DNA from: Acidiphilium iwatense
GTDB taxonomy: Bacteria; Pseudomonadota; Alphaproteobacteria; Acetobacterales; Acetobacteraceae
Direction of reading: 5' to 3'
Length of the DNA stretch: 64,000 nucleotides
Assembly: GCF_021556475.1 (NCBI RefSeq)
Contig: NZ_JAKGBZ010000015.1
Span: 1 to 64,000, forward strand
Shown here: positions 4,179 to 35,715 of the stretch, in pieces
How positions within the stretch are numbered: position 1 is the stretch's first letter
Layout: every line of letters begins with the position of its first letter
Program-made: the position numbers and the translations under genes
Notes under the pieces: generated by a model
What the model saw: only the letters and a program-made list of their open reading frames with translations
The model's database searches: none
Told to the model about the DNA's origin: nothing

Positions 4179-5122
4179 CTGCGATGCCGCCCATCGGCGT
4201 CACGTTGATCGGCGGATTTCTTGGCGCCGGCAAGACCACGCTGGTCAACCATATCCTGCGGCACGATCCGCGCCGGAGGATCGGCGTGCTCGTCAATGAT
4301 TTCGGCGCCATCAACATCGATGCCGATCTGATCGCATCGCGCGACGGCGATGCGATCCGGCTGACCAATGGCTGCCTCTGCTGCGGCATCGGCGACAGCC
4401 TGTCGCGCGCACTGATCGACATGCTCGCGCAACCCATTCGCCCCGACCATCTGCTGATCGAGGCGAGCGGCGTCGCCGAACCCTGGCGGATCGCCGAGCT
4501 GATTTGCGCGGCCCCTGAGTTCGCTCCGCCGATGACGCTGGTGGTGGTGGACGGGTCGCGAATTCAAACCCAGCTCGCCGACCGCTATATCGGCGATCTC
4601 GCGCTCAGCCAGATCGAATCAGCCGACCTGCTGATTCTGAACAAGATGGATCTGGTGCCCGCACAAGGAGATCTTATCGCGTGGATGCGAGAAACCTGGC
4701 TGGGAAAGCGCTTCGCTATTAGCGAACACGGTGCGATCGATCCTGAATTGCTCAGCGCTGACCACAACCCATCCCGATTCCGCGCCGTGCGCGCACCGGC
4801 CCCGGCCGCCGCGGATCGCTTCGTCGGTCTGCGCTTCGTCACAGACGTGCCTTTCGACGCAGGGCGTTTGCACGCCGCGATGGCGGCGATGCCGCCCTGG
4901 ATTCTCCGGTTGAAGGGGATCGTCACTCTCGCCGGCGAGGTTGCGCCGCAAAGCCTGCAATTCACCCCAGGCCGATGGAGCATGACGACGCTTCATGATC
5001 GGGCGGCACCCGCCGGCAGCCGGATCGTCGCAATCGGCCATCGCGATCGCGCCGATGCGAGCGCGCTGGACCGCCTGCTGACCGATGCATTGCAAACCGC
5101 CGATCTACAAACTTCTCGTTAG
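4175..5122 (+). CDS. G3E-family GTPase (CobW/YjiA type), candidate metallochaperone
   Basis: 315 residues. Walker A GGFLGAGKTT near residue 13, the zinc/metal-binding CLCC motif in LTNGCLCCGIG near residue 63, EASGVAEP near residue 93, and guanine specificity NKMD near residue 154, followed by a C-terminal CobW_C-like domain. COG0523 GTPases deliver metal ions to target enzymes. The ATGA overlap with a metal-dependent amidohydrolase suggests that enzyme as the client; this is inference. It lies convergent with the MocR gene, only 15 bases away. Confidence 0.88.
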   Translation: MTAMPPIGVTLIGGFLGAGKTTLVNHILRHDPRRRIGVLVNDFGAINIDADLIASRDGDAIRLTNGCLCCGIGDSLSRALIDMLAQPIRPDHLLIEASGVAEPWRIAELICAAPEFAPPMTLVVVDGSRIQTQLADRYIGDLALSQIESADLLILNKMDLVPAQGDLIAWMRETWLGKRFAISEHGAIDPELLSADHNPSRFRAVRAPAPAAADRFVGLRFVTDVPFDAGRLHAAMAAMPPWILRLKGIVTLAGEVAPQSLQFTPGRWSMTTLHDRAAPAGSRIVAIGHRDRADASALDRLLTDALQTADLQTSR

Positions 5123-5137
5123 TTTCTTGTCAACGCG

Positions 5138-6727
5138 CTACGCATGGAGCAGGGCGGCCAGCTTGCGGATTCCCGTATCGATCTGGTTTGCCGCGATTGA
5201 GGAATAGCCGAGCCGGAAGAACGGGCACGGTGCGGGCGGCGTATCGAAGAAAACATCGCCCGGCTCGATCAGAACGCCTGCCCGCCGTGCCGCCTCGGCG
5301 AGCCGCCGCGTATCCAGTCCCTCCGGTCCCTCGATCCACAGACTCGAGCCGCCTCGCGGCTGTTGAAAGCGCAATTCGGGCACGTGTCTGGCAAGTGCCG
5401 CCGCAAGAACCGCCGCGCGCTCCGCCAGCACGGCTGTCAGCCTGCGGATCAGCGCGTCGTGATGTCCAAGGGCGAGAAACAGAGCGGCGGCACGCTGATT
5501 ATTCGCGGGCGGATGCCGGACCATGAGCCGGCGCAGCGCGCGGCATTCGGTGATCAATTCGGGCGCACCGACGACATAGCCGATTCGCAAGCCGGGAGCC
5601 AGGCTCTTCGACAGACTGCCCACATAGACGACCCGATCCGACCGATCGAGGCTTTTCAAGGCCGGCGTCGGAGAGCCGTCGAATTTCAATTCGCTCTCAT
5701 AATCGTCTTCAATGATGATCATGTCGTGGCGTTCGGCATGATCGAGCAGAGCCTCGCGCGTGGCGAGGGGCAAGGTCGACGATGTCGGGCATTGATGGCT
5801 TGGCGTGAGATACACCAGCCCGCAATCGGCCAGACTCTCATCGATGGCGATCCCGTCCCGCGTCAAAGGCAATGCGCGAAGAGCCGCACCGCGCATCGTG
5901 AAAATATTGCGCGCATCCGGGTAGCCCGGATTTTCGATGCCGACGATCTTTCCGGGCCGGACCAGCAGCTCGGCGAGCATATAGAGCGCATGCTGCGCAC
6001 CGATCGTAATCATGATCTGATCGGCCGCGACAAAAATACCCCGCCTTGGCAGGATGCGCTGCTGGAGTTGTTCGATCAGCATCGCGTCATCGCCGTCGAT
6101 CATGTCGGCGGACCAGTCGCGGATCGCCAGTACTGCCAGCGCGTTCCGGCTGCATTCGCGCCAGTCCGCCGTTGGAAACAACGCGGGATCGGATTGGCCA
6201 TAGATGAACGGATACGGATAGGTATACCAGTCGGGCGGCTTCTGAATATTACGCTGATCGATAAAATGACCGCTCAGCTTCGTCGACCAATTTGGCCGGA
6301 CGGAAGAAGCGGCGGTATTGTCTTGCCGCAACGATGCCTTGGCGATTATTCGGTCGGCAACATCGCTGGATACGACATAACCGCTCCGCGCATGGGCGAC
6401 GATGAACCCCTCGTCGACCAGTTGCCGGTAGGCCAGCGTGACTGTGTTGCGCGCGACACCGAGATGTCTGGACAATGCGCGGCTGGACGGCAATCGCGTC
6501 GCCGCGCGCAAATGTTTGTCCAGGATCGCGGTCACCAGCGAACGCCGGATCTGCAGCTGGAGCGAAGCATCATCGCGTGGGTCGAGCGCGAATAGCGGGT
6601 GCCAGAGTATCTGCCGGGGTTTGGGCCTGGGAGAGCCATCGTCGATCGGCGGCGATCGCTTCCTCGAATGCATAGGATGGTTCTCCCGACTTGCCCGCAT
6701 ATCGCGATCAAGCAAAATAGGTGCCAT
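5138..6727 (-). CDS. MocR/TauR-like PLP-dependent GntR regulator
   Basis: 529 residues. The N-terminal winged helix (about residues 48-115, LPSSRALSRHLGVARNTVTL) is GntR-like; the rest is a fold-type I aminotransferase domain with the PLP-binding lysine motif VVYVGSLSKSLAPGLRIGY (about residue 370). This is the MocR subfamily, which includes TauR, the activator of taurine genes that responds to taurine and PLP. It is the last gene of the xsc operon, with 9 bases after the MFS gene and a GAGGAG ribosome site overlapping that gene's end. A role in sensing a sulfonate or amino-sulfonate is likely but unproven; other MocR proteins control vitamin B6 or GABA genes. Confidence 0.85.
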   Translation of the reverse strand: MAPILLDRDMRASRENHPMHSRKRSPPIDDGSPRPKPRQILWHPLFALDPRDDASLQLQIRRSLVTAILDKHLRAATRLPSSRALSRHLGVARNTVTLAYRQLVDEGFIVAHARSGYVVSSDVADRIIAKASLRQDNTAASSVRPNWSTKLSGHFIDQRNIQKPPDWYTYPYPFIYGQSDPALFPTADWRECSRNALAVLAIRDWSADMIDGDDAMLIEQLQQRILPRRGIFVAADQIMITIGAQHALYMLAELLVRPGKIVGIENPGYPDARNIFTMRGAALRALPLTRDGIAIDESLADCGLVYLTPSHQCPTSSTLPLATREALLDHAERHDMIIIEDDYESELKFDGSPTPALKSLDRSDRVVYVGSLSKSLAPGLRIGYVVGAPELITECRALRRLMVRHPPANNQRAAALFLALGHHDALIRRLTAVLAERAAVLAAALARHVPELRFQQPRGGSSLWIEGPEGLDTRRLAEAARRAGVLIEPGDVFFDTPPAPCPFFRLGYSSIAANQIDTGIRKLAALLHA

Positions 6728-6736
6728 CTGCGCTCC

Positions 6737-8179
6737 TCAAACCACGTTGCGCGGATTATTCGCGACACCAGCACCGGCCGACGAAGCAACGACGTTATGT
6801 TCCAGCTCTTCCAGAGTCTTGCCACGCGTCTCCACCGTCGAGGTCAATTCGACGGCCACGCCGATGAACGCGACAACGGCAATGATGATGAAACTGGTCG
6901 CCAGACCATAGCGATGCAGCAGCACGGGCAATGCGTAAACACCCACCACGCCACCGAAAAACCGCGATACCGCCTCGACAGTCGCGGCCCCGGTTGCCCG
7001 CAATTCGATCGGATACTGCTCGGCCAGGGACATTTTGAGTGCCGGAAAGGCACCCGTGCCAAAGAACGACATGACGCAGGCATAAAACACCGTTCCGATG
7101 ATTGAACCGGGGATGCCGAACAGCAAAGCCCCGGTCCCGGCGGCGCCCATGAAAATCACATAGGCAGCGCGCCGGCCCAGCCGTTCGGCAACCCAGCCAT
7201 TCGCCAGCTTGCCCGGAATCGCCGCGCCGGTAATGATCGCCGTGAAAATGAGAGAAGTCGCGAACTTGTAGCCGTGGGCGACGAAAATCGTCGGCATGTA
7301 GCTCATCACGACATAAAACATGAAAAACACGCCGGTGGCCGAAACGCAGCGGGCAATCGTGCGTCCGATCAGGCGCGGACCGAACAATTGCGCAAAACCG
7401 GCCGCGCGGCCTGCCGGCAAAGTCATGCCGGTTTGCGCCACCGGGGCAGGTAATTGTTTGCCGGTCAGCCTTATCGCTTCGGCCTCCATCGTCGCCACGA
7501 TCGTCTCGGCTTCCGCCATGCGCCCCTTGCGCGCGAGCCAGCGCGGGCTTTCCGGCAACAGCCAATAGACGAACCAGGCATAGATGATCGGGCTTGCCGC
7601 GATCATGAAAAATATCCGCCAGGACACCGTCGGGCTGAAATGGGGAAACACGACGAAACCAAGCAGAGGCGCCACGAAATAACCTACCGAAAGGCAGGCA
7701 TCCATGAAGCCGTTGAACATGGTGCGATGGTTTTTGCGGACAAATTCACCGACGATCGCATATGGCAGGGGAAAAATCGCACCCATGCCCAATCCGGCAA
7801 GAAACCGGACGCCGAGAAGAACGTCGTAGCTGGGCGCCAATCCGCAAAGGAAGGTAAACAGACTATACCAGATGATCCCCCCGATCAGGATTCGCTTGCG
7901 TCCGAACCTGTCGGCGAGGCGGCCCGCGGGGATCAGGCCGATCACCACACCGAATGTCTGGAAGGCGACCAGGGCGCCGACATCGCCCGGAGTCAGATGC
8001 AATGTCGCGCGCAGCGCCGGAAGCGATACGCCGAGCGAGCCGATGCTGAGCGCCTCGGTAAACCAGGCGAGCCCGGCGACGATCACGATGCGCCAGGTCA
8101 GCCAGGTGACCGGCAACCGTTCGAGGCGCGATGCGATCGTTTCCTGAGCGGCGATTTTGTCTGCGACGTTTATGGTCAT
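6737..8179 (-). CDS. MFS transporter, candidate sulfoacetate permease (SauU-like role)
   Basis: 480 residues, 12 predicted membrane helices. The loop 2-3 signature GRLADRFGRKRILIGG is present (about residue 83), and its pseudo-repeat NGWVAERLGRRAAYV follows in the second half. The start has a near-perfect ribosome site (GAGGAGGGA). The gene sits between the SucD-like ligase subunit and the MocR regulator in the operon, so it probably imports the operon's substrate. In Cupriavidus necator the sulfoacetate operon also uses an MFS carrier (SauU). Substrate assignment rests on context; the sequence alone only shows a sugar/organic-acid type MFS carrier. Confidence 0.82.
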   Translation of the reverse strand: MTINVADKIAAQETIASRLERLPVTWLTWRIVIVAGLAWFTEALSIGSLGVSLPALRATLHLTPGDVGALVAFQTFGVVIGLIPAGRLADRFGRKRILIGGIIWYSLFTFLCGLAPSYDVLLGVRFLAGLGMGAIFPLPYAIVGEFVRKNHRTMFNGFMDACLSVGYFVAPLLGFVVFPHFSPTVSWRIFFMIAASPIIYAWFVYWLLPESPRWLARKGRMAEAETIVATMEAEAIRLTGKQLPAPVAQTGMTLPAGRAAGFAQLFGPRLIGRTIARCVSATGVFFMFYVVMSYMPTIFVAHGYKFATSLIFTAIITGAAIPGKLANGWVAERLGRRAAYVIFMGAAGTGALLFGIPGSIIGTVFYACVMSFFGTGAFPALKMSLAEQYPIELRATGAATVEAVSRFFGGVVGVYALPVLLHRYGLATSFIIIAVVAFIGVAVELTSTVETRGKTLEELEHNVVASSAGAGVANNPRNVV

Positions 8180-8225
8180 TGTCGTTCCCTCCTCAAAACC
8201 CCGGCTGAGAGCCGCGAGTTACGCG

Positions 8226-9128
8226 CTACGCGGTATCGTGAGCGTATATCGGCAGCCGAGCGGACAAAGCGTCGGCGATAACCCGTGGCGTATCGACAAC
8301 GGTGACGCCGGCTGCCTCCAGGGCGGCGCGCTTGCCGGCATAGCTTCCGGCATTGCCCGCGACGATCGCGCCGGCATGGCCCATGCGTTTGCCTTCCGGC
8401 GCGGCGCGACCGGCGATGAACGAGACGACCGGCTTCGTCATCGTAGCCGCATAGGTCGCGGCGGTTTCCTCCATCGATCCGCCGATCTCGCCGACCAGAA
8501 CGACGGCATCGGTGCGGGGATCTTGGTCGAGGGCGCGCAATGCATCCTCGGTCGTCGTGCCGATCATCGGGTCGCCGCCGATGCCGATGAAGCTCGACTG
8601 ACCGAATCCCGCACGCGTCAGATTGAGGCAGATCAGCGTGCCGAGACTGCCACTTCTTGAGATCACGCCGATCCGGCCCGGCTGGAAAACATTCGTGTTG
8701 TGGCCAGGCATGATGCCGACAAAAGCTTCTCCGGGCGTCACCAGGCCGGCGGTGTTCGGCCCGACGATGCGGCAATCGGCTGCTGCCGCGCGCGCAAAAA
8801 TCGTCAGCATGTCGTGCGTCGGCACATGCTCGGTGAGAACGACAAGTCCGCGCACACCCGCTTCGATCGCGTCGAGCGCCGCGTCACGCACGGCGGCGGG
8901 TGGAATGAACATCACCGCGATATCGACCGGCATCCCCGCGAGTGCGGCTCGCGCCGAGGCAAAGATCGGCAGGCCGAGATGGGTTTCGCCGGCGCGCTTC
9001 GGGCTGACGCCCGCGACGATTTGCGTGCCCGTTTCCAGCATCCGCTCGGTCCAGAAACTGCCCTGGCTTCCGGTCAGGCCCTGAACCAAAATCCGGTCGG
9101 TTCGGCGAATGATGGGAAACATCGTCAT
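8226..9128 (-). CDS. SucD-like alpha subunit of ADP-forming acyl-CoA ligase (candidate sulfoacetate-CoA ligase)
   Basis: 300 residues from the ATG at 9128, which overlaps the stop of the beta subunit (ATGA). The N-terminal CoA-binding Rossmann domain has [10 protein letters not shown], and the C-terminal ligase domain carries the phosphohistidine motif GHAGAIVAG (about residue 247), the catalytic histidine of succinyl-CoA synthetase alpha. With the beta subunit it would activate a carboxylate with ATP and CoA. Placement between a CoA-acylating aldehyde dehydrogenase and xsc argues for sulfoacetate rather than succinate: two-subunit ADP-forming sulfoacetate-CoA ligases (SauCD, SqwKL types) are known. 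Malate-CoA ligase is the main alternative. Confidence 0.85.
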
Positions 9129-10252
9129 TGTGCCGCCTCGATTGCCGCGCACACGGCATCTTCCATGAAATCGAAAGGATCGACCCCCAGCTCCCGCCGG
9201 ACCAGGGCAACGGCTTCGTCTTCGCCGGTGCCGTGAACCGAGAAAAACACCGGCACGTCCGGCTTGAGCCGGTTCCAGGCTTCGGCGACGCCGCGCGCCA
9301 TAACATCGGTCCGCGCGAAGGCACCGCAGAAATTGACGACGAGCGCCCGAACGCGCGGGTTTTTCAGCAACAGCGCAAGCGCCGGTTCGGCTTTCGTGTA
9401 GGCGTCGCCGCCGATTTCCAGAAAATTCGCCGGTCTGCCGCCATAATGCCGCACGACATCCATGGTGGTCATGGTCAGGCCGGCGCCGTTGGCCAGAATG
9501 CCGACCGATCCATCAAGTTCGATGTATTTGAGCCCGAGCGCCGCGCCTTCGGTTTCCAAAGATGTTGCCGGGTCCGCTTGCGCCACCGCGGCAAGCGATG
9601 TCTGCCGGAACGCAGCGGCATCGTCGAGGGTGAATTTACAATCGAGCGCCACCAGCTTCCCGTCATTCAACTGAGCCAGAGGATTGATCTCGATCAGTTC
9701 CGCATCCGTCTCGCGATAACGCCGATACAGCCTGACCAGAATATCGGCGATCGCAGGAGCGGCGTCGCCGAGTTCCAGGCCGTCGAGCATGGCGGTTGCA
9801 TCGGCGGTATCGAACCGATCGGGAGACGTGACCAGATGGCGCCTGATCGCGTCCGGCCGCGTCGCGGCAAGTTCCTCGATATCCATGCCGCCCTCGGCCG
9901 CGAACAGAACGAGCGATGCCCGTTCGCGCGGCGCATGCAGAATTGCGGCATAGAACTCGCGCGCAATGGGTGCACAGGTCTCGACCAGCACCGCCCCCAC
10001 GCGGTGGCCGGAAATCGCCATGCCGAGGATCGACTGCGCAACCTCTCTGGCCTGTGCGGGCGACTCCGCCACGCGAATGCCGCCTGCCTTGCCGCGCTTG
10101 CCTGTTGGCACCTGGGCCTTGATCACGCTCGGCCCGAGTCGCTCCACCGCAATCGCCGCTTCATCCGCATCCCGGCACAACACGCTATCGAGCAGCTTAA
10201 TTCCAGCGGGACCGAGAATGAGGGTTTTCGCATCATGTTCGAGGAGATTCAT
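9125..10252 (-). CDS. SucC-like beta subunit (ATP-grasp) of ADP-forming acyl-CoA ligase
   Basis: 375 residues from the ATG at 10252. The frame is open 25 codons further, but that extension would overlap the dehydrogenase gene, so the internal ATG 11 bases after that gene is preferred. An ATP-grasp domain (VIKAQVPTGKRGKAGG near residue 44; ELIEINPLA, metal-binding, near residue 190) precedes the CoA-ligase domain with GILANGAGLTMTTMD (near residue 250) and GGRPANFLEIGG, all typical of SucC. It forms the carboxylate-CoA ligase with the SucD-like partner. Specificity for sulfoacetate is inferred from the operon. Confidence 0.85.
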   Translation of the reverse strand: MNLLEHDAKTLILGPAGIKLLDSVLCRDADEAAIAVERLGPSVIKAQVPTGKRGKAGGIRVAESPAQAREVAQSILGMAISGHRVGAVLVETCAPIAREFYAAILHAPRERASLVLFAAEGGMDIEELAATRPDAIRRHLVTSPDRFDTADATAMLDGLELGDAAPAIADILVRLYRRYRETDAELIEINPLAQLNDGKLVALDCKFTLDDAAAFRQTSLAAVAQADPATSLETEGAALGLKYIELDGSVGILANGAGLTMTTMDVVRHYGGRPANFLEIGGDAYTKAEPALALLLKNPRVRALVVNFCGAFARTDVMARGVAEAWNRLKPDVPVFFSVHGTGEDEAVALVRRELGVDPFDFMEDAVCAAIEAAQ

Positions 10253-10262
10253 GATTGGAACC

Positions 10263-11687
10263 TCATCGCCCGTACCGTGCCCAATATTTGCCGAACAGAT
10301 CGGCCTCGGACGGTCTGTCCTCGGCAATCGGCGTAACCAGATGGGTGATATTCAGAAAATGGCGATAGTTCAGATTCTCGCTGATCGAATTCTTCTGCCA
10401 CGATCCGCACCCCATGCTGAGGGTGAAATTCAGCCCGCTGTCGAACCCGCCGCCATTACCGAAAGTATGCCCGAAATTGACCAGAACCCTTACCACATCA
10501 AGAGATTCGGCAAGCCGCGTTGCCCGTTTCAAGTCCTTGGTGTGAATGCCGCAGGAATGCCCGCGTCCCTGATAGTCGAGGATACGGCGGACGGTGCTCA
10601 TCGCCTGCCCGATATCACTCGCCCGATAAACCGCGAGGACGAGCGATAGTTTCTCGCCGGAAAACGGATGCTCCGGTCCCCATCCGGTTTCCTCGACCAT
10701 GAAAAACCGGGCCTGCCGCGCTTCCTCGGGAAGGTCGAATTCGCGTGCGAGAATTTCGGCATCGCGCGCGATCAACGAGCGATTGAGTTTGCCGTTCCGC
10801 CACAAAATCGATTGAATCCGGGCAGCTTCCTTCGTCGTACACAAATACCCCCCTGCGCGACGAAGCGCCGCCAGGGCCTGGTCATAAACCGCGTCCACGA
10901 TGATCAGGGCATTTTCCGACGAACAGGACGTGGAATTATCGAATGTCTTCGAAGCGGTGATCTTGCGGGCCGCATCGTCAAGATCGGCGGTCTCATCGAC
11001 AATGACCGGAACATTGCCCGCACCGACGCCGATCGCCGGCGTGCCGCTGCGATAGGCACGCCGGACATTGTCCTGAGAGCCGGTGACGACCACGAGGTCG
11101 GCCGCCTCCATCAGGGTCTGGGTCATCTGTTTGGAGGCCGGCGCCGGCAGCACCTGAACCAGGTCGGGCGGAGCACCGATCCGTGCCAGTTCGGCACGCA
11201 TGGCGGCGACCGTCTCCGTCGTCGTCACCAGCCCGGTCGGCGATGGCGCGATGATGATCGCGTTGCGGCCTTTGATCGCCATCATCGCCTTGTTCACCGC
11301 CGTCGCGGATGGATTGGTCGATGGAGTCACCGCGGCGACGACACCGATCGGCTTGGCGAACTTGACGATGCCGAGCGTCTTGTCCTCCTCGATCATGCCG
11401 ACCGATTTCGCCCGCAGCAGGTCGCGCAGCGTGCCGAACGTCTTGCGCTGGTTCTTGATGATCTTGTCGGCAACGTTGCCGATCCCGGTATCGCGTACCG
11501 CCAACTTGGCCAAGGTTTCGGCCCGATCCGGCCGATAGAGCGACCAGGCAACGGCGATGACGAACTCGTCGGTGCGATCCTGATCGGCGCCGGCGATCGC
11601 CGCCATCGCACGGCGTGCATTGGCGACCAAGTGTTCGACGAGCCCCGTCACGCCGTCTGTTTCGATATTCGCTGCAACTTGATCCAT
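10263..11687 (-). CDS. sauS: CoA-acylating aldehyde dehydrogenase, probable sulfoacetaldehyde dehydrogenase
   Basis: 474 residues of the acylating aldehyde dehydrogenase branch (EutE/AdhE N-domain/SauS). The catalytic cysteine is C255 in NSTSCSSENALI; the segment VTPSTNPSATAVNKAM (about residues 120-135) is characteristic of CoA-dependent enzymes. In context it would reduce sulfoacetyl-CoA to sulfoacetaldehyde with NAD(P)H, linking the CoA ligase to Xsc. Acetaldehyde dehydrogenase is an alternative activity of this fold, but no alcohol dehydrogenase or ethanolamine genes are nearby. The gene lies 31 bases after pta and 10 bases before the ligase beta subunit. Confidence 0.85.
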   Translation of the reverse strand: MDQVAANIETDGVTGLVEHLVANARRAMAAIAGADQDRTDEFVIAVAWSLYRPDRAETLAKLAVRDTGIGNVADKIIKNQRKTFGTLRDLLRAKSVGMIEEDKTLGIVKFAKPIGVVAAVTPSTNPSATAVNKAMMAIKGRNAIIIAPSPTGLVTTTETVAAMRAELARIGAPPDLVQVLPAPASKQMTQTLMEAADLVVVTGSQDNVRRAYRSGTPAIGVGAGNVPVIVDETADLDDAARKITASKTFDNSTSCSSENALIIVDAVYDQALAALRRAGGYLCTTKEAARIQSILWRNGKLNRSLIARDAEILAREFDLPEEARQARFFMVEETGWGPEHPFSGEKLSLVLAVYRASDIGQAMSTVRRILDYQGRGHSCGIHTKDLKRATRLAESLDVVRVLVNFGHTFGNGGGFDSGLNFTLSMGCGSWQKNSISENLNYRHFLNITHLVTPIAEDRPSEADLFGKYWARYGR

Positions 11688-11718
11688 TCCTTGCGTTTCC
11701 CCGGTCGTTGAATTCGCG

Positions 11719-12711
11719 TCAGGCAGGCGCGGGTGGCATGGCGGTAACGATGCGGGCCAGCGCGATCGAGGCGAGTTTCGCCTCCACCGGATCGGCCCGC
11801 GAGGTTAGAACGATCGGCACGGTCGCACCCAGAACGAGTCCCGCGGCCGTTGCATTCAGCAAATGAACCAGCGCCTTGAACAGCGCGTTGCCGGTCTCGA
11901 TATTTGGCACGACCAGAATATCCGCCCGCCCGGCAACCGCGTCGTGCTCCAGTCCCTTGAGCGAAGCGGATGCCGCCGACAGAGCGACATCGAGCGCAAG
12001 CGGCCCGGCAATGCTGCACCCCGAAGCCTCCGCCTCGTCGCGGAAGCTGGCGACGAAATCACCGGCCGCCACGGAGGACGGCATTGCCGGGTTGATCACC
12101 TCGCTCGCGGACAGCATCGCAATGCGCGGATGCGCGATGCCAAGGGCGCGGGCGACGCGAATCGCATGGCGGACGATCTGCACGGTCGTTTTGCGATCGG
12201 GTGCAACGTTGAGCGCCGCGTCGGTAATCAGCAAATCGCGCGCCCTGCCTGGCCAGCGCATGGCGAACACATGAGAGAGCCGGTCGCCACGCCGCAATCC
12301 CGTCACCGGATCGAGAACCGCGCGCATCAACGCGTCGGTATGCAAATGCCCCTTCATCAGGATTTGGGCGGTGCCTTCAGCGACCAGGGCAACCGCGATG
12401 CGGGCGGCCTCGGCCTCGTCCGCGGCCGGCACGATGCGGCAATTGGCAAGGGAAAGCCCGTGGCGCGGCATCGCCGTGGTAAGCCAGCCGGCATCGCCGA
12501 CCAGGATCGGCTCGATCAGATCGAACGCTGCCGCCCAGGCGACGCTTTGCAGCACGTGCTCGGCATGGGCGGCGGCAATCGCCATCGGGGCAGGCCCCAG
12601 CGTTTTGGCGTGCAGCAGAAGCGCCGGCGAACAGAGATATCCGCCCGCAAGGGGAACCGGCGGGGCATCGCCGGTTGGCGTGGAGAACGGTTCTGTCGAA
12701 TGCGAATCCAT
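11719..12711 (-). CDS. pta: Phosphate acetyltransferase
   Basis: 330 residues, the length of the short Pta form without a regulatory N-domain. Recognisable family segments include EPILVGDAGWL (about residue 67), ILMKGHLHTDALM (about residue 116), LITDAALNVAPD (about residue 159) and the C-terminal GLVLGATVPIVLTSRAD (about residue 290). It converts acetyl phosphate plus CoA into acetyl-CoA and phosphate. The gene directly follows xsc (23-base gap), and in sulfonate degraders pta often accompanies xsc because Xsc releases acetyl phosphate. Confidence 0.9.
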   Translation of the reverse strand: MDSHSTEPFSTPTGDAPPVPLAGGYLCSPALLLHAKTLGPAPMAIAAAHAEHVLQSVAWAAAFDLIEPILVGDAGWLTTAMPRHGLSLANCRIVPAADEAEAARIAVALVAEGTAQILMKGHLHTDALMRAVLDPVTGLRRGDRLSHVFAMRWPGRARDLLITDAALNVAPDRKTTVQIVRHAIRVARALGIAHPRIAMLSASEVINPAMPSSVAAGDFVASFRDEAEASGCSIAGPLALDVALSAASASLKGLEHDAVAGRADILVVPNIETGNALFKALVHLLNATAAGLVLGATVPIVLTSRADPVEAKLASIALARIVTAMPPAPA

Positions 12712-12734
12712 GCTCCGTATGCCCCGCCGCTCGG

Positions 12735-14486
12735 TCAGGCCACCGTGTATTCGGAGTATTTCTCAAGCATCCGCTTCGGCTTCGACAGCGCATCACGACG
12801 GAACGGATCGCCAAGCTCCTGCGTGACCATCATTTCCAGGATCGTCGTCTTGCCGTCGCGCTGCGCCCGGCAGGCCGCTTCCAGCGCACCGCCGACATCG
12901 GAAACCCGGTCGATCACCTGACCCTCGGCACCCATCGCGCGCGCGATCGCGGCGAAGCTCGGGTTCTTCAGATCGGTGCCGACGAAGCGGCACGCATAGA
13001 AATCGACCTGGTTCTTCTTCTCGGCACCCCATTGACCATTGTTGAAAACCACAGCGGTCACTGGCAGGTTTTCCCGCAAGGCGGTGAGAATTTCGCCGAA
13101 GCTCATGGTCCACGCGCCATCCCCGGCATAGGCGATCGCCGGGCGCTCCGGTGCGGCCGCCTTGGCGCCAATAGCAACCGGGAACGCATAGCCGCAATTG
13201 CCGAAGCTCATCGCCGCGAGCATGCTGCGCGGACGATCGAAGCGCAGATAGCTGTTCGAGACCGAGCAGATATTGCCGATATCGGTGGACACCATTGCAT
13301 CCTTCGGCATCGCATGTTCGAGTTCGCGCAGCATCTGGCGTGGATGCATCCGCGAACCATCGCTGCCGACATCGCGGCTGAAATCGTCGGTCTCCTGGGT
13401 CCAGCGCGTCAGTTCATCCTCCCAGGCCGCCTTCTCGTCACGAATCGTCGCGAGCCGCTGCTCACGCGACTTACTGCCGGCCAGAGACCGATTGCCAAGC
13501 GCCTCGGTCAGCGCTTCCGTGACCTCACCGGCATCACCGCACAGCCCGACCGAGATTTTCTTGACCAGGCCGAGCATTTTCGGATCGGCGTCGATCTGGA
13601 TGATCTTCGCGTTGCGCGGCCAGTAGTCGAGACCGTGTTGCGGCAACGTGCCGAACGGCCCGAGGCGGGTGCCGAGCGCCAGCACGACATCGGCGCGGGC
13701 GATCAGCTTCATCCCGGCTTTCGAGCCCTGATAGCCCAGCGAACCGGCCCAGAGCGGATGGCTCGCCGGGAAGCTGTCGTTATGCAGGTAGCTCGTCACC
13801 ACCGGCGCACCGAGCAGTTCGGCAAGTGCGATGCACGCTTCGGCACCATCCGCCGCGATCACACCACCGCCCGCGACGATAACCGGGAATTTCGCCTGCG
13901 CCAGCAACTCGGCTGCCTGCGTCAGGCTCGCCCGGCCGCCCGCGCCGCGCTCGATCCTGATCGGCTCGGGAATGTCGTAGTCGTGATTGGCATAAAAATA
14001 ATCGCGTGGGATGTTGAGCTGGGTCGGCCCAAGATCCAGCATCGCGCGATCGAAGCAGCGCGCGGTGATTTCCGCCATGCGGCGCGGATGATTCACATGG
14101 CCCTGGTATTTGGTGATTTTCGAGAACACCGGAAGCTGATCGGTTTCCTGAAAACCGCCAAGCCCCATCGACAGTGTTCCCGATTCCGGCGTGATCGCGA
14201 CCACCGGGCTATGCGCCCAGTAGGCGGCGGCGATGCCGGTCACGAAATTGGTGATGCCCGGCCCGTTCTGCCCGATGCACACGCCATGCTTGCCGCTGAT
14301 TCGCGCATAGCCATCGGCCATGTGCGCGGCACCTTGTTCATGAACCGTCGGCAGGAAGCGAATTCCAGCCGCGGGAAACAAGTCGAGTGCGTCCATGAAG
14401 GCCGACCCGACAATGCCGAATACATTTTTGACCCCCTGAGCAACCAGGGTTTCAACAAAAGCCTCGCTTGACGTCATTTCCGTCAT
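12735..14486 (-). CDS. xsc: Sulfoacetaldehyde acetyltransferase
   Basis: 583 residues, a thiamine-diphosphate enzyme of the acetolactate synthase superfamily. The N-terminal PYR domain has the catalytic glutamate region LPTVHEQGAAHMADGYAR (about residues 43-60) and IGQNGPGITN; the C-terminal PP domain has the metal/TPP motif AYAGDGAWTMSFGE (about residues 458-471) followed by NNGQWGAEKKNQVDFY, close to known Xsc proteins. Reaction: sulfoacetaldehyde + phosphate -> acetyl phosphate + sulfite, the desulfonation step shared by taurine, isethionate and sulfoacetate degradation. It is the first gene of the minus-strand operon, with GGAGAC as ribosome site. No sulfite oxidase or exporter gene is in the window. 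Confidence 0.93.
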   Translation of the reverse strand: MTEMTSSEAFVETLVAQGVKNVFGIVGSAFMDALDLFPAAGIRFLPTVHEQGAAHMADGYARISGKHGVCIGQNGPGITNFVTGIAAAYWAHSPVVAITPESGTLSMGLGGFQETDQLPVFSKITKYQGHVNHPRRMAEITARCFDRAMLDLGPTQLNIPRDYFYANHDYDIPEPIRIERGAGGRASLTQAAELLAQAKFPVIVAGGGVIAADGAEACIALAELLGAPVVTSYLHNDSFPASHPLWAGSLGYQGSKAGMKLIARADVVLALGTRLGPFGTLPQHGLDYWPRNAKIIQIDADPKMLGLVKKISVGLCGDAGEVTEALTEALGNRSLAGSKSREQRLATIRDEKAAWEDELTRWTQETDDFSRDVGSDGSRMHPRQMLRELEHAMPKDAMVSTDIGNICSVSNSYLRFDRPRSMLAAMSFGNCGYAFPVAIGAKAAAPERPAIAYAGDGAWTMSFGEILTALRENLPVTAVVFNNGQWGAEKKNQVDFYACRFVGTDLKNPSFAAIARAMGAEGQVIDRVSDVGGALEAACRAQRDGKTTILEMMVTQELGDPFRRDALSKPKRMLEKYSEYTVA

Positions 14487-14541
14487 TTGGTGTCTCCGTT
14501 AGTGCCGCCCATCCACTGGTCCGGCATCGATAAAGCCATGG

Positions 14542-15423
14542 TCAATCGAAGGTGAAACTTTCCCCTAGCGCCCGCGCCGCAACCAGCAACGCACCGCGAT
14601 GGCGATAGGCATCCGTGCTCGGCATCCGGGCGGCGGGCGCCTGAATGGCGATGCCCGCGGTGATTTCCCGTCGGGCGTTGAAGATCGGCGCCGCAAGACA
14701 GACCACGCCGAGCAGATATTCCTCGCGATCGACCGACAATCCTTCCCGGCGGATGCTGTCGATTTCCGCTTCAAGTCCCGAAAGCGTCGTGATCGTGTGG
14801 GGCGTGACGGGTTGCAGATCGAGCCGCGAAAGCATCGATGCGCGTTGGCGTTCGGGCAGGAAGGCGAGAAACAATTTGCCGATCGCCGTGCAATAGAGCG
14901 GCACGCGCGAGCCGATGTGGAAATGCAGGCGAAGCGGCCAATGCGTCGCTTCGACGCGATCGAAATAGACGATCTCGCTCCCCTCGAGCGTGCCGATATT
15001 GCAGGTCTCGCCAATCTCACTGACCAGCGCATTCAGAATCAGGCGACGGGGGCCATATTGCACCGAACTCCTCAGGATATCGAACGCGAAATCGGCAAGG
15101 CGCGGCCCGATCGCGATGCCTTTGGAACTGAACCGCCGATGCAGAAGGCCCTGAGCCTCGAACTGCTCGATCATGCGGTAGACCGTGGGTTTCGGAAGAT
15201 CGAGATGTTCGGCGATATCGGCCGGCGTCACCGGCCGCCCCGCGCGCACGACATATTCCAGCACCGCGAAGGACCGCTGAAAAACCCCGAGTTTTTCGGA
15301 AGATTCGACCTGATCGTCCTCCAGCATCGCACGCGCCGGAACGGCCGCTTCGGCCGGCTTCGGCTTGCGCTGTGTCTCGTCAGGCTTGATGGGGCTGATC
15401 ACTTTCGGCAATTTTCCATTCAT
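14542..15423 (-). CDS. IclR-family regulator (candidate IseR/SauR-type)
   Basis: 293 residues. After a Pro/Lys-rich N-terminal tail comes the IclR winged helix (about residues 48-110; VTPADIAEHLDLPKPTVYRM), then the effector-binding domain with GSRVPLYCTAIGKLFLAF (about residue 172) and REEYLLGVVCLAAPIF. The gene lies between xsc (same strand) and the divergent MHS transporter. IclR regulators accompany isethionate clusters (IseR) in proteobacteria. It probably binds the intergenic region 15424-15566, where an inverted repeat is visible. Confidence 0.88.
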   Translation of the reverse strand: MNGKLPKVISPIKPDETQRKPKPAEAAVPARAMLEDDQVESSEKLGVFQRSFAVLEYVVRAGRPVTPADIAEHLDLPKPTVYRMIEQFEAQGLLHRRFSSKGIAIGPRLADFAFDILRSSVQYGPRRLILNALVSEIGETCNIGTLEGSEIVYFDRVEATHWPLRLHFHIGSRVPLYCTAIGKLFLAFLPERQRASMLSRLDLQPVTPHTITTLSGLEAEIDSIRREGLSVDREEYLLGVVCLAAPIFNARREITAGIAIQAPAARMPSTDAYRHRGALLVAARALGESFTFD

Positions 15424-15488
15424 TGGTCATTTCCATCTTGAATAATGATACGAACTCCGATAGCTGTCAACTCGATTCCGCTGGTCGA

Positions 15489-15514
15489 GACAAATTTTAT
15501 CAGAAATCTTTGTC
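15489..15514. promoter_or_regulatory. Candidate IclR operator between divergent genes
   Basis: An imperfect inverted repeat GACAAA-N14-TTTGTC (arms 15489-15494 and 15509-15514) lies in the 143-base divergent intergenic region between the IclR gene and the transporter gene. The region is AT-richer than its surroundings, and the transporter's ribosome site AGGAGGA follows at 15556. Function as an operator is inferred from symmetry and position. Confidence 0.4.
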
Positions 15515-15566
15515 AAAGTCGGCGGCCGACCGAGCCAAGAGCAAAACCGAACTCAGGAGGAACATC

Positions 15567-16925
15567 ATGACGCAGGATTCGGCCATAGCCCACGAGGAAA
15601 CGCGGCTTCGGCGGATCGCGCTGGCCAGCGCGATCGGCACCACCATCGAATGGTATGATTTCTTCCTCTACGGCGTATTGGCGACCCTCGTGCTCAATCG
15701 CGTGTTCTTCCCAGGCTTCAGCCCGCTGCTCGGCACTCTGCTATCCTACACCACCTTCGCGATCGGCTTCGTCGCCCGCCCGGTGGGCGGCATTATTTTC
15801 GGCCATTTCGGCGACCGGATCGGCCGCAAGACGGTGCTGATCCTGACTCTGCTGATCATGGGAATTTCGACCTTCCTGATCGGCCTTTTGCCGGGCTATG
15901 CAACGCTCGGCGTCGCGGCGCCGATTTTGCTGCTGCTGCTGAGAATCATCCAGGGCATCGGCATCGGCGGCGAATGGGGTGGTGCCGTGGTTCTCGCCAT
16001 CGAGCACGCCCCGGCCGGCCGCCGCGGCTATTTCGGCGCCTACCCGCAAATCGGCGTGCCGGCAGGGCTGATGTCGAGTGCGGCGGTTGTGGCGATTCTC
16101 ACGCAATTGCCCGATGGGCAATTCATGCTGTGGGGTTGGCGCATCGCATTTCTGTTGAGTGCCCTTCTCGTCGCCGTCGGCCTGTTCATCCGGCTGAAAA
16201 TCATGGAGACGCCGGAATTCCTGGCGGTGCAGGCGACCAAAACGGAATCCCGCGTGCCGTTATTCGACATGTTCCGCTTCTATCCGCGCGCCATTCTGCT
16301 CACCCTCGGCGCACGCTATATCGAAGGTGCCTGCTTCAACATGTTCGGCGTCTTCATCATCTCCTATGCGGTCGGAACGCTGCATCTCTCGCGCGGGTTT
16401 ACCCTGGGCGGCGTCATCATCGCTTCGGCGGTAATGATCCCCTTCATCCTGATCTTCGGTGCCTTGGCCGACCGGATCGGCCTGAAGCGCATGTTCGGCA
16501 CCGGCGCCCTGATCGTCGCACTAACGTCGGTCGGCGCCTTCGCGGTCATGCAGACCTACGGCGCCGTCCATCCGATCCTGGTCTGGGTGTCGATCATCGT
16601 GCCGCTGTCGCTCGCCTACCCGATGGTCTACGGCCCGGAATCATCGCTGTTCGCAAGCCAGTTCGAAACCAGGGTGCGCTACACCGGCGTCTCCTTCGCA
16701 TACCAATTCTCCGGTATTTTCGCGAGCGGGTTGACGCCGATCGTCGCGACGCTTCTGCTCGCCGCCGATCACGGCAGACCCTGGTATATCGCATGGTATA
16801 TGGTCGCGGTCGGCCTGATCAGCTTCGTTTCGGTTACCGCGATGCGCATCCCGGAAACCGCGGCGGCGCATGAAGCGGCGTCTCCGATCATGCAGGCGGC
16901 AACTCAGGGGCTGGAGTCCAATTGA
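15567..16925 (+). CDS. MHS-type MFS transporter, candidate isethionate permease (IseU-like role)
   Basis: 452 residues from the ATG at 15567, chosen because AGGAGG lies 6 bases upstream. The signature TTIEWYDFFLYG near residue 25 is diagnostic of the metabolite:H+ symporter (MHS) group, and the loop 2-3 motif GGIIFGHFGDRIGRKTVL follows. Twelve membrane segments are expected. It imports a small organic acid with protons. Its stop overlaps the start of the GMC flavoprotein gene (TGATG), so the two are coupled. An IclR regulator + MHS carrier + GMC dehydrogenase is the gene set reported for isethionate use. Confidence 0.85.
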   Translation: MTQDSAIAHEETRLRRIALASAIGTTIEWYDFFLYGVLATLVLNRVFFPGFSPLLGTLLSYTTFAIGFVARPVGGIIFGHFGDRIGRKTVLILTLLIMGISTFLIGLLPGYATLGVAAPILLLLLRIIQGIGIGGEWGGAVVLAIEHAPAGRRGYFGAYPQIGVPAGLMSSAAVVAILTQLPDGQFMLWGWRIAFLLSALLVAVGLFIRLKIMETPEFLAVQATKTESRVPLFDMFRFYPRAILLTLGARYIEGACFNMFGVFIISYAVGTLHLSRGFTLGGVIIASAVMIPFILIFGALADRIGLKRMFGTGALIVALTSVGAFAVMQTYGAVHPILVWVSIIVPLSLAYPMVYGPESSLFASQFETRVRYTGVSFAYQFSGIFASGLTPIVATLLLAADHGRPWYIAWYMVAVGLISFVSVTAMRIPETAAAHEAASPIMQAATQGLESN

Positions 16926-18556
16926 TGATGGCTGATTTCGCCAACGTCTCGTTCGATTACATCGTGGTGGGGGCCGGTTCGGCGGGCTGCGCGCTGGCCA
17001 ACCGGCTGTCGGCGGATGCGCGCAACAAGGTTCTGTTGCTCGAAGCCGGCCCGCCGGACACCTATCCATGGATTCATATTCCCGTCGGCTATTTCAAGAC
17101 GATGCATAATCCGCGCACCGACTGGTGCCTGCGCACCGAACCCGATCCGGGCTTGGCGGGGCGCAGTCTCGCCTGGCCGCGCGGCCGCGTGCTCGGCGGA
17201 TCGAGCGCGATCAACGGGCTGCTCTATATTCGCGGCCAGCCCGCCGATTACGACCAGTGGCGCCAGCTCGGCTGCGCCGGCTGGGCGTTCGACGATGTGC
17301 TGCCCTATTTCAAACACGCAGAAGATCAGGAACGCGGCGCCGATGCGTTTCATGGTACGGGCGGCCCGCTCGCGGTGTCGGACATGCGGGTCCGGCGCGA
17401 CATCTGCGATGCCTATATCGAAGCGGCGGCGGCACTCGGCATTCCGCGCAACGACGATTTCAACGGCGCGACGCAGGAAGGTGCCGGTTATTTTCAGCTA
17501 ACCGCCCGCAACGGGCGGCGCTGCAGCGCCGCCGTCGCCTATCTCAGACCTGTGCGGAATCGCCCTAACCTCGCCATCGTGACCGGCGCGCTGGTGCATC
17601 GCGTGCTGATCGAAAAACGGCGCGCCAAAGGCGTCCTCTTCGAGGCGGGCGGCACGCTGCACCAGGCGTCTGCGCACGGCGAAGTCATTCTCGCCGCCGG
17701 CGCGGTCCATTCTCCCCATCTTCTGGCGCTCTCCGGCATCGGGCCGGGTGCGCGCCTCGCCCGCGCCGGAATCGAGATCGTGCATGATCTGCAAGGCGTC
17801 GGCGAAAATCTCCAGGACCATCTGCAGGCGCGCGCGGTTTACGCCTGCACCAGGCCGACCCTCAACAACGAGGTCAACAATCCGTTCCTCAAGCTGAAAA
17901 TCGGCCTCGACTACATCCTGTTCCGGCGCGGCCCGATGACCATGGGCGCCAGCCAGGTCGCGATCTTCGCGCGCTCCGAACCCGCGCTGGATACACCGGA
18001 TATCCAGTTCCACATCCAGCCGCTGTCCAGCGACGAGCCGGGCAAGGGTCTGCACCGCTATCCGGCGTTCACCGCCTCGGTCTGCCAGCTCCGGCCCGAG
18101 AGTCGCGGCCGGATCGAAACCGTATCGCCCGATCCGTCTCGCCCGCCCGTGATCCACCCGAATTATCTCTCAACGCCCAAGGACCGGCAGGTGATCGTCG
18201 CCGGCATGCGCCTCTCGCGCCGGCTTTGCGAAACCGCGCCGCTGCGCGATTTCGTCAAGGCCGAACTGGTGCCCGGTCCCGACGTGCGGACCGACGCAGA
18301 CTTCCTCGCCAATGCGCAACAGACCGCGACGACGATCTATCACCCCGCCGGCACCTGCAGGATGGGGATCGATCCGCTCGCTGTGGTCGATCCGCGCTTG
18401 CGGGTGATCGGGATCGACGGGCTGCGGGTCGCCGATGCGTCGATCATGCCGACCCTGGTATCCGGCAATACCAATGCACCGGCGATCATGATCGGCGAAA
18501 AGGCGTCGGCCATGATCCTAGAGGATTGCGCCACCGGCCTGGTGCGCGCGGCTTAG
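16925..18556 (+). CDS. GMC flavoprotein oxidoreductase, candidate isethionate dehydrogenase (IseJ-like role)
   Basis: About 543 residues. The FAD-binding start is FDYIVVGAGSAGCALANRLS (about residues 8-27); GMC signature 1 is GSSAINGLLYIRGQPADYDQW (about residue 95), signature 2 is GAVHSPHLLALSGIGPG, and the catalytic histidine lies in TIYHPAGTCRMG with the partner region SGNTNAPAIMIGEKAS near the C-terminus. Choline dehydrogenase is the best-known relative, but no betaine genes are near. Coupling to an MHS carrier and closeness to xsc suggest oxidation of the alcohol group of isethionate to sulfoacetaldehyde. The start may be ATG 16925 or 16928. Confidence 0.85.
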   Translation: MMADFANVSFDYIVVGAGSAGCALANRLSADARNKVLLLEAGPPDTYPWIHIPVGYFKTMHNPRTDWCLRTEPDPGLAGRSLAWPRGRVLGGSSAINGLLYIRGQPADYDQWRQLGCAGWAFDDVLPYFKHAEDQERGADAFHGTGGPLAVSDMRVRRDICDAYIEAAAALGIPRNDDFNGATQEGAGYFQLTARNGRRCSAAVAYLRPVRNRPNLAIVTGALVHRVLIEKRRAKGVLFEAGGTLHQASAHGEVILAAGAVHSPHLLALSGIGPGARLARAGIEIVHDLQGVGENLQDHLQARAVYACTRPTLNNEVNNPFLKLKIGLDYILFRRGPMTMGASQVAIFARSEPALDTPDIQFHIQPLSSDEPGKGLHRYPAFTASVCQLRPESRGRIETVSPDPSRPPVIHPNYLSTPKDRQVIVAGMRLSRRLCETAPLRDFVKAELVPGPDVRTDADFLANAQQTATTIYHPAGTCRMGIDPLAVVDPRLRVIGIDGLRVADASIMPTLVSGNTNAPAIMIGEKASAMILEDCATGLVRAA

Positions 18557-33032: not shown

Positions 33033-33767
33033 TTACGCCGCGAGAATCGCCATCGCCTGCCGCTTGAGATCGAGAAATTCCGGGTCGAGCGTCATGTCCC
33101 AATGGCGCGGGCGCGCCAGCGGCACAACCCGTTCCAGGGCCACCCTGCCCGGCCGCGCGCTCATCACGATCAGCCGGTCGCCGAGCAGGATGGCTTCGTC
33201 GATGTCGTGCGTGATGAACACCACGGTCGCGCGAATCCGCTCCCACAGCCCGAGCAGGAATTGCTGCATGGTATGCCGGGTCTGGGCATCGAGCGCGCCG
33301 AACGGTTCGTCCATCAGCAAAACCCGTGGCCGCATCACCAGCGCGCGCGCGATGGCGACGCGCTGCTGCATTCCCCCCGAAAGTTCGTAGGTGCGATGGT
33401 TCTCGAATCCTTTCAGGCCCATGACCTCGATCAGCTCATCGACCCGCGCCCAATCGATCGATCGCGCGGACTTCATGCGCAGGCCGAAGGCGATATTGTC
33501 GCGCAGCGACAGCCACGGATAGAGCCCCGCCTGCTGAAACACCACCACGCGATCCGGCCCCGGCCTGGTGACATTCGAACCGTCCAGCGTCAGCCGGCCG
33601 GCACTGGGCGGCGTCAATCCCGCCAGCATGTTCAGCAGCGTCGATTTGCCGCATCCCGAAGAGCCGAGAATGGTCACGAAGGTGGCATCCTCGATCGTCA
33701 GCGACACATCGTCGAGCACGCGCAACGGGCCGAAATCCTTGCAGACGCGATCAACCAGAATTGGCAT
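33033..33767 (-). CDS. ABC transporter ATPase, TauB/SsuB type
   Basis: 244 residues. Walker A GSSGCGKSTLL (about residues 35-45), Q-loop VVFQQAGLYPW, signature LSGGMQQRVAIARAL (about residues 128-142), Walker B VLLMDEPFGALD, and switch histidine FITHDIDEA. This is the nitrate/sulfonate/taurine class. Third gene of a permease - binding protein - ATPase operon, 11 bases after the binding protein gene. Confidence 0.9.
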   Translation of the reverse strand: MPILVDRVCKDFGPLRVLDDVSLTIEDATFVTILGSSGCGKSTLLNMLAGLTPPSAGRLTLDGSNVTRPGPDRVVVFQQAGLYPWLSLRDNIAFGLRMKSARSIDWARVDELIEVMGLKGFENHRTYELSGGMQQRVAIARALVMRPRVLLMDEPFGALDAQTRHTMQQFLLGLWERIRATVVFITHDIDEAILLGDRLIVMSARPGRVALERVVPLARPRHWDMTLDPEFLDLKRQAMAILAA

Positions 33768-33778
33768 CGGCGCCGCCC

Positions 33779-34789: not shown

Positions 34790-34804
34790 GATGATCTCCT
34801 ATTG

Positions 34805-35689
34805 TTACGCGTGACCACGCCACGGAACGGCGCGGCGCTCGAAAACCCGGATCAGCAGTTCCATCGCATAGCCGATGACGCCGATGACGATGATCCCGAC
34901 GATGACGATCGAAACCTGCAATGCCTGTCCGGCATATTGCACGAGCCACCCGAGCCCCTGATCCGCCGCGATCAGCTCGGCGGCGACCAGGCAGGTCCAG
35001 GCAACGCCGATACCGACGCGCATGGCGGTGAAAATCTCGGGCAAGGCGGAAGGCAGAATCACATAGCGAAAGATCTGGCTTTCCGAGGCGCCGAGCGTGC
35101 GCGCGACGGAAAGCCGCAACGACGGCGTGCCCCTGACGCCCGAGATCGTGCCGATGATGATGACCGGAACCGTGCCGATCAGAATCAGGAGAATCTTCGG
35201 CAGTTCGCCGATGCCGAACCAGACCACCAGAAGCGGAATATAGGCGAGCGGCGGCACCGGGCGAACGAATTGCAGGAACGGATCGATGATTCGAAAGATC
35301 AGATCGCTCCGCGCCATCAGCAGTCCGGTCGGCACGCCGAGCACGATCGCCCCGATAAAGCCGATCGCGATGCGCACCGAACTGATCCAGATGTCGTCGA
35401 GCAGAGAATGGCCGCCATAGCCCTGCACCAGCAGCAGCACGAGCGCGTGCCAGACCGCGACCGGCGACGGCAGGGCGACCGGTGGGAAAATATGCAGAAC
35501 CGAAACAAGTTCCCACAGGACAAGGGCCACGCACAACGCCGTCGCCGTCGCGAACCGGGACACGTGCCGCCACCGCAGGGGGAACTGCGCAACCGGCGGG
35601 GGGCGATCAGCTCCGAGTGCCGGAGCCGGAGCCTCGGGCAATGCGTCGGCCGGCGCCGTGTTTTCCTGAACGATTATCTCTTCCTGCAA
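34805..35689 (-). CDS. ABC transporter permease, TauC/SsuC type
   Basis: 294 residues, six or so membrane helices after a polar 55-residue N-terminal region. The BPD_transp_1 ATPase-contact loop is visible as ARTLGASESQIFRYVILPSALPEIF (about residues 188-212). The start is TTG at 35689, supported by GAGGAGG upstream and no nearby ATG. First gene of the three-gene importer operon; the order permease - binding protein - ATPase differs from E. coli tauABC. Confidence 0.87.
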   Translation of the reverse strand: MQEEIIVQENTAPADALPEAPAPALGADRPPPVAQFPLRWRHVSRFATATALCVALVLWELVSVLHIFPPVALPSPVAVWHALVLLLVQGYGGHSLLDDIWISSVRIAIGFIGAIVLGVPTGLLMARSDLIFRIIDPFLQFVRPVPPLAYIPLLVVWFGIGELPKILLILIGTVPVIIIGTISGVRGTPSLRLSVARTLGASESQIFRYVILPSALPEIFTAMRVGIGVAWTCLVAAELIAADQGLGWLVQYAGQALQVSIVIVGIIVIGVIGYAMELLIRVFERRAVPWRGHA

Positions 35690-35715
35690 CGCACCCTTCC
35701 TCCTCGTGTCCTGCT

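Follow-up and report, generated by a model that had tools for sequence, protein, structure and literature searches.

Sulfoacetate is a natural sulfonate. Here we analyze a stretch of 64,000 nucleotides (nt) from Acidiphilium iwatense (RefSeq assembly GCF_021556475.1, contig NZ_JAKGBZ010000015.1, positions 1 to 64,000), henceforth termed the window, which carries eight adjacent minus-strand genes between 15423 and 5138 that very probably serve the degradation of this compound through an ADP-forming coenzyme A (CoA) ligase of the SauCD type, SauS, Xsc, and Pta. The window is part of contig C57 in an assembly of 4.16 Mb and 156 contigs. In the order of transcription, the genes encode an IclR-family regulator, Xsc, Pta, SauS, the beta and alpha subunits of the ligase, an MFS carrier, and a MocR-type regulator (Table 1). 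The gaps from IclR to MocR measure 55, 23, 31, 10, -4, 46, and 9 nt, the negative value reflecting an ATGA overlap of the beta and alpha genes, and from this spacing we infer that the eight genes form one transcript. A preliminary description of this DNA had placed xsc, pta, an acylating dehydrogenase, both ligase subunits, an MFS carrier, and a MocR regulator on one strand with gaps of 47 bases or fewer, and profile matches and coordinates agree with it on both counts. The range it gave, 6737 to 14486, holds for Xsc through the MFS carrier and leaves the MocR gene outside; the genes it named are all present, and its list omitted the IclR gene, which is part of the unit.

Table 1. Genes and promoter-like site of the sulfoacetate unit, in the order of transcription.
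Feature	Position	Strand	Evidence
Promoter-like site TTGACA-17-CATTAT, upstream of the IclR gene	15442..15470	-	Weak, by place only
IclR-family regulator, first gene of the unit	14542..15423	-	Pfam IclR_C, 147 bits, and HTH_IclR; 55 nt upstream of xsc
xsc, sulfoacetaldehyde acetyltransferase	12735..14486	-	TIGR03457, 928.2 bits (cut-off 676.4)
pta, phosphate acetyltransferase	11719..12711	-	PF01515, 130 bits; NF006045, 297.8 bits (cut-off 282; a subfamily model named after a bifunctional protein, the Pta match spanning only positions 166-458 of 467)
sauS, CoA-acylating sulfoacetaldehyde dehydrogenase	10263..11687	-	NF047625, 786.9 bits (cut-off 600)
sauC-type beta subunit, ADP-forming acyl-CoA ligase	9125..10252	-	ATP-grasp_2 and Ligase_CoA; PF08442, 144 bits
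sauD-type alpha subunit, phosphohistidine position His251	8226..9128	-	CoA_binding and Succ_CoA_lig (PF02629, PF13607)
MFS carrier	6737..8179	-	PF07690, 171 bits
MocR-type regulator (GntR and aminotransferase)	5138..6727	-	PF00392 and PF00155; 9 nt past the MFS gene

The beta subunit likely starts at the ATG at 10252, as the TTG listed at 10327 falls within the dehydrogenase gene. The two subunits were compared with succinyl-CoA synthetase (SucCD), malyl-CoA synthetase (MtkAB), and the sulfonate ligase HpfYZ. The beta subunit scores below both SucC cut-offs (293.8 against 375.55 and 331.6 against 370) and below that of MtkA (233.9 against 604), and the alpha subunit falls short of the SucD model TIGR01019 (337.8 against 353.2). 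Identity of the beta subunit is 33-39% to the full-length SucC-type matches from 59 other genomes of the family and 51-73% to 80 loci of its own type. A tree was built from 121 beta subunits (119 of them different; IQ-TREE quick search with midpoint root, supported by the SH-like approximate likelihood ratio test, SH-aLRT, only). In it, one change accounts for the 90 window-type rows, and an SH-aLRT of 100 separates them from 27 SucC-type and four MtkA rows. Because the MtkA rows nest among them, the SucC-type rows need two changes. The tree placement suggested in the preliminary description, carried out for the beta subunit, thus groups the window protein with neither the SucC-type nor the MtkA rows; its nearest rows are loci L004, L002, and L003, the last a metagenome-assembled genome (MAG) named Acidiphilium sp. 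37-60-79.

Long branches occur in this tree, among them L134, L080, L130, and L092, and 41 of the 116 inner branches are open. "SucC-type" is a residual label for SucC-family rows outside both the window clade and the four MtkA rows; many such rows find their best match, at 51-56%, in an annotated MtkA and not in E. coli SucC, yet the tree places them apart from the MtkA group. The MtkA label of L095 and L096 derives from 66% similarity, and L134 carries no annotation. Six loci from duplicate genomes (L093, L094, L142, L143, L151, and L152) were left out of the tree and the residue counts in favor of L149, L148, L003, and L004, and the identical pairs L009/L145 and L047/L144 were kept.

Residues of the active site were compared across the same groups. 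For this comparison, beta subunits were aligned to the pig beta subunit and the E. coli protein, and alpha subunits to the E. coli protein and the spacing of HpfZ; 113 of the 121 beta rows contributed an alpha subunit to the counts. The catalytic set is kept throughout the window type, with N125, S159, E214, and H251 present in all 84 alpha subunits and E188, G281, and G282 in all 90 beta subunits; these positions serve phosphate, magnesium, and the carboxylate that reacts. According to excerpts of PMC11489063, the C4 carboxylate of the substrate in pig succinyl-CoA synthetase contacts the hydroxyl group of Tyr167 and the backbone amides of a Gly-Ile-Val motif. Both of these distal-carboxylate elements are altered in the window ligase, which carries Thr164 in alpha and Ala311-Phe312-Ala313 in beta. 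Alpha position 164 is Thr in 78 of 84 window-type rows (Val in four, Ala in two) and Tyr in all 25 SucD-type and all four MtkB rows. At beta position 311, Ala occupies 90/90 window-type rows and Gly 27/27 SucC-type and 4/4 MtkA rows; at position 312, Phe is found in 85 of 90 window-type rows and Ile in every SucC-type (27) and MtkA (4) row. Position 313 is Ala in all 90 window-type rows and varies in the SucC type (Met 19, Ala 6, Val 1, Thr 1). Among 13 loci fetched later, the beta motif occurs in all 13 and the alpha Thr in 12, where L164 is DNA-identical to L017 over 4119 nt, so that 12 of the 13 are new. The signature, i.e., alpha Tyr to Thr and beta Gly-Gly-Ile-Val/Met/Ala to Gly-Ala-Phe-Ala, offers a simple search handle for further members. 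On the beta tree and the residues, true SucCD and MtkAB were rejected as identities of the ligase. HpfYZ was likewise rejected, since the putative signature given for it in the excerpted PMC11489063, a His in HpfZ and Gly-Ile-Asn in HpfY, differs from the Thr and Ala-Phe-Ala of the window.

The gene neighborhood of the ligase type was followed in genome contigs, where a scan with the window protein returned relatives of which the best 80 of 124 share 51-73% identity. Going by their names, Alphaproteobacteria account for most of these 80, Beta- and Gammaproteobacteria for some, and a MAG with the name Acidobacteria for one. In 76 of the 80 loci, the gene directly preceding the ligase on the same strand is sauS; in L034, sauS sits on the opposite strand, and in L031, L044, and L073 none was seen, the contig of L044 starting 54 nt ahead of the ligase gene. 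No SauS was found in the 31 loci of the SucC and MtkA types, whose flanks mostly extend ~1.5 kb. Among the 35 loci of at least 19 kb, xsc is present in 18, pta in 12, an IclR gene in 20, TctA in 15, and an MFS gene related to the references used in six. The order IclR-Xsc-Pta-SauS-SauC-SauD-MocR is found in G034, a genome from another genus of the family, and in G058 a TTT carrier replaces the MFS carrier of the window, with neither pta nor IclR labelled. Plasmids of Indioceanicola and Azospirillum carry IclR, pta, a TTT carrier, sauS, sauC, and sauD followed by SoeABC-like genes; on the Azospirillum plasmid, xsc comes after these, and SoeA is unannotated there and was assigned computationally. 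A Rhodococcus plasmid holds xsc, an MFS gene, sauS, sauC, sauD, IclR, and TauE inside 17 kb, and its SauS scores 804.6 against the NF047625 cut-off of 600.

The ligase (E <=1e-80) was found in 8 of 299 genomes and 3 of 65 genera of the order, and in two of the seven genomes listed for the genus. Within the family, Xsc above cut-off accompanies it in nine of nine ligase-bearing genomes tested and occurs in one of five congeners without the ligase. In a sample of 385 genomes from the class, with the same ligase threshold and E <=1e-150 for Xsc and SauS, the ligase was detected in 14 genomes, Xsc in 48 (46 above cut-off), and SauS in 34 (24 above cut-off). SauS above cut-off is present in all 14 ligase genomes and in 10 of the 371 others (Fisher p ~1e-19, uncorrected for relatedness), and its match ends 7-179 nt ahead of the ligase match in 14/14. 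Xsc at this E-value threshold is found in 12 of the 14 and in 36 of the 371 (Fisher p ~3e-10, likewise uncorrected), the 12 including a fragment at a contig end in G407 that falls below the cut-off; in eight of the 12 it lies <=5 kb from the ligase on the same contig and in four on another contig. Conversely, 14 of the 24 genomes with SauS above cut-off bear this ligase type, and nine of the remaining ten also carry Xsc. These genomes with SauS and Xsc but without this ligase may use SauT. Because SauS adjoins the ligase in 76/80 loci and 14/14 genomes and Xsc is in excess among ligase genomes, a role in converting sulfoacetate to sulfoacetaldehyde is supported.

The window xsc is the sole TIGR03457 match above cut-off in its own genome. 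Two types of Xsc, ~46-48% identical to each other, accompany the same ligase type. The first occurs in the window, L004, L015, the Rhodococcus plasmid, G034, and G058, and the second in Acidocella and Azospirillum loci (those compared with the window include L007, L009, L013, L018-L023, and L047).

An IclR gene lies likewise upstream of the sau genes in loci L003, L004, L006-L009, and L047 and in genome G034. None of the 25 NCBIfam matches listed for the MFS carrier reaches its cut-off; a relative with 83% identity is located downstream of sauD in L004, and by its position the carrier is a probable sulfoacetate importer. The MocR-type regulator passes the PdxR model NF052282 (353.8 bits against 320). 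A 62% identical relative is found downstream of sauD in G034, and since that genome has it in the same run, the gene belongs with the unit; among the 80 loci, MocR was found in one. Its placement here and in G034 suggests a sulfonate role rather than that of PdxR. The promoter-like site is the only sigma-70-type match in 5000-15700, and because shuffled sequence averages 2.8 matches over this region, it is just its place upstream of the IclR gene that argues for it.

Taken together, these data point to the following pathway. Sulfoacetate would be imported by the MFS carrier and activated to sulfoacetyl-CoA by the SauCD-type ligase in an ADP-forming reaction; by analogy with succinyl-CoA synthetase, ATP would phosphorylate His251 of the alpha subunit, and an acyl phosphate would then be converted to the CoA thioester. 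SauS would reduce sulfoacetyl-CoA to sulfoacetaldehyde, which Xsc is predicted to cleave with phosphate to sulfite and acetyl phosphate, and Pta would convert the latter to acetyl-CoA. IclR, and perhaps MocR as well, presumably regulates the unit. Breakdown of sulfoacetate by the ADP-forming route had been put forward in the preliminary description, and the beta tree, the pocket changes in both subunits, and the association with SauS and Xsc argue for it at the level of sequence. Its further claim that every step to acetyl-CoA is encoded in one operon is borne out, and a likely sulfite-oxidizing set is encoded elsewhere. There, genes resembling soeA, soeB, and soeC stand in a row and share 64, 72, and 50% identity with the genes beside sauD in Indioceanicola. 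SoeABC is a sulfite dehydrogenase, and the SoeABC-like complex would probably oxidize the released sulfite; an NCBIfam scan of the SoeA-like and SoeC-like genes gave no equivalog above cut-off. The genome also holds one TauE-family match above cut-off, as do 14 of 14 control genomes, so this match is uninformative.

Several observations weigh against this assignment. With the SucD model NF004230, the alpha subunit scores above cut-off, if narrowly (340.3 against 336). The assignment to the SauCD type rests on domains, the pairing with SauS, and the beta tree, and the likeness to the characterized SauCD and SqwKL is one of description, not of sequence. The co-occurrence counts treat related genomes as independent, and Xsc was not found in two of the 14 ligase genomes, G545 (70% complete) and G652 (100% complete). 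Only 18 of the 35 relatives with full flanks have xsc within the fetched locus, and in the congener G238 it lies ~20 kb from sauC.

The narrow pass of NF004230, together with membership in the SucC/SucD family, also favors an altogether different view, in which the ligase would be a synthetase of succinyl-CoA (or malyl-CoA), either housekeeping or a paralog, and its place in an xsc operon a coincidence. Several plasmid relatives are indeed annotated as sucC or succinate-CoA ligase, and the genome yielded no other full-length SucC. We consider this highly improbable in view of the separate beta clade, the 33-39% identity to SucC-type proteins of the family compared with 51-73% within its own type, and the altered distal-carboxylate site. 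In addition, the own-genome assembly, which yielded neither a SucC nor a SucD of the housekeeping type at full length, has pieces of these genes at four contig ends (L083, L084, L089, and L090), and the intact copies most likely disappeared in an assembly gap. Two contigs end with the first 35 residues of sucC and have identical last 123 nt, and two further contigs begin with the end of sucD and have identical first 123 nt; on one of the latter, sucD is followed by the beginning of a gene for 2-oxoglutarate dehydrogenase E1 (439 bits to the first part of the model). On the strength of these pieces, the shared 123 nt, and the adjoining E1 gene, the reading that the genome is devoid of the SucCD of the tricarboxylic acid cycle was rejected. 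The simplest reading is that two near-identical housekeeping sucCD copies were lost in assembly, and we infer that the organism possesses a housekeeping succinyl-CoA synthetase. It is also very unlikely that the ligase acts on a related short acid such as 3-sulfopropionate or malonate, with the specificity of SauS matching. The precedent is HpfYZ, which excerpts of PMC11489063 describe as specific for 3-sulfopropionate and inactive on sulfoacetate; its signature, however, is absent from the window, where SauS scores above the sulfoacetaldehyde equivalog cut-off and Xsc above that of its own model.

Alternatively, the ligase and SauS could run in reverse, converting sulfoacetaldehyde from taurine or another sulfonate via sulfoacetyl-CoA to exported sulfoacetate with a gain of ATP, and with Xsc as a branch. 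Such a reverse route is reported for SqwD/SqwKL in the excerpted PMC12890257 and PMC11659671, and reversibility was demonstrated for the related HpfXYZ system (PMC11489063, in excerpt). The window itself offers a possible source, as minus-strand genes at 33033-37230 encode an SsuA/TauC-like ATP-binding cassette (ABC) transporter and an omega-aminotransferase that could supply sulfoacetaldehyde from taurine. Against this direction stand the shared unit of Xsc and Pta with the ligase, here and in G034, and the Azospirillum cluster, in which sauSCD is joined by xsc and by TTT and SoeABC-like genes, as would suit consumption; moreover, none of the three ABC genes reaches the taurine and sulfonate cut-offs shown. 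We therefore judge reverse flow to be quite improbable. A combination of both directions is an unlikely option as well: in this scheme, the unit would act as a two-way valve at sulfoacetaldehyde, with the ligase and SauS feeding Xsc on sulfoacetate and running backwards with ATP formation and sulfoacetate excretion on taurine-like amines, and IclR and MocR sensing both inputs. The aminotransferase and sulfonate-like ABC genes are located ~19 kb from the unit.

Other parts of the window are summarized here. The aminotransferase beside the three ABC genes scores 589.5 with the AptA model (cut-off 500), and this gene group might yield sulfoacetaldehyde from taurine or another aldehyde from beta-alanine. 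Divergent from the IclR gene, the plus strand at 15423-18556 encodes a GMC oxidoreductase and another MFS carrier, which is of the metabolite/H+ symporter type and scores below cut-off; this MFS gene probably starts at an ATG at 15567, which is in frame and preceded by an AGGAGG site. The region 53043-64000 contains parts of a DNA methylase with a type-ISP domain, an IS110-type transposase, an AAA/DUF4143 protein, and a helicase, and looks like a mobile or defense region.

Degradation of sulfoacetate by the proposed route can be set beside the known systems. Cupriavidus necator H16 reportedly employs an IclR regulator, Xsc and Pta, and an AMP-forming SauT. The window resembles it, by description and not by sequence, in SauS and the MFS carrier and also in IclR, Xsc, and Pta; it differs in having a SauCD-type pair, ADP-forming by family, where Cupriavidus has the single-gene, AMP-forming SauT. 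An ADP-forming ligase costs one phosphate bond and an AMP-forming ligase two. If the proposal is true, some xsc-bearing bacteria would activate sulfoacetate more cheaply than by the Cupriavidus route, a trait partly concealed in public records because the SauC-type genes on the plasmids of Rhodococcus, Indioceanicola, and Azospirillum (L130, L131, and L132) are annotated as sucC or succinate-CoA ligase. The sauS, sauT, and MFS carrier SauU of C. necator H16 are credited to Weinitschke et al. 2010 in excerpts of PMC12625764.

Within the accessible portions of the literature on sulfoacetate CoA ligases, SauCD, SauS, and Acidiphilium, whose coverage leaves out most subscription papers, no description of this unit was found. 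Among the closest systems is that of Bilophila wadsworthia (Liu et al. 2023, as cited in excerpts of PMC12890257 and PMC12625764), where an ADP-forming SauCD is followed by SauS. The likeness in ligase and dehydrogenase is one of description, not sequence, and the fates diverge: Bilophila converts sulfoacetaldehyde to isethionate, which is cleaved by a glycyl radical enzyme, and uses a TTT carrier, whereas the window encodes Xsc, Pta, and an MFS carrier. SqwD/SqwKL (Chu et al. 2023, via excerpts of PMC12890257 and PMC11659671), again similar by description in its acylating dehydrogenase and ADP-forming sulfoacetate-CoA ligase, belongs to an oxidative sulfoglycolytic pathway that excretes sulfoacetate, whereas the window unit is proposed to consume it. 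The Arctic sponge symbiont OTU3, a MAG, is predicted to possess sauSCD with a TTT carrier, and its genome also has xsc and pta (PMC12625764, in excerpt). Here, as in the window, the prediction is based on the genome; the passages available do not place xsc and pta of OTU3 in the sauSCD cluster, whereas in the window all are in the unit, with an MFS carrier. The window unit is hence a hybrid of known parts, whose co-presence in one genome was already published in the excerpted PMC12625764, and to which the present analysis adds the joining of xsc, pta, and an MFS carrier into a single unit, a residue signature, and wider relatives on plasmids and in MAGs.

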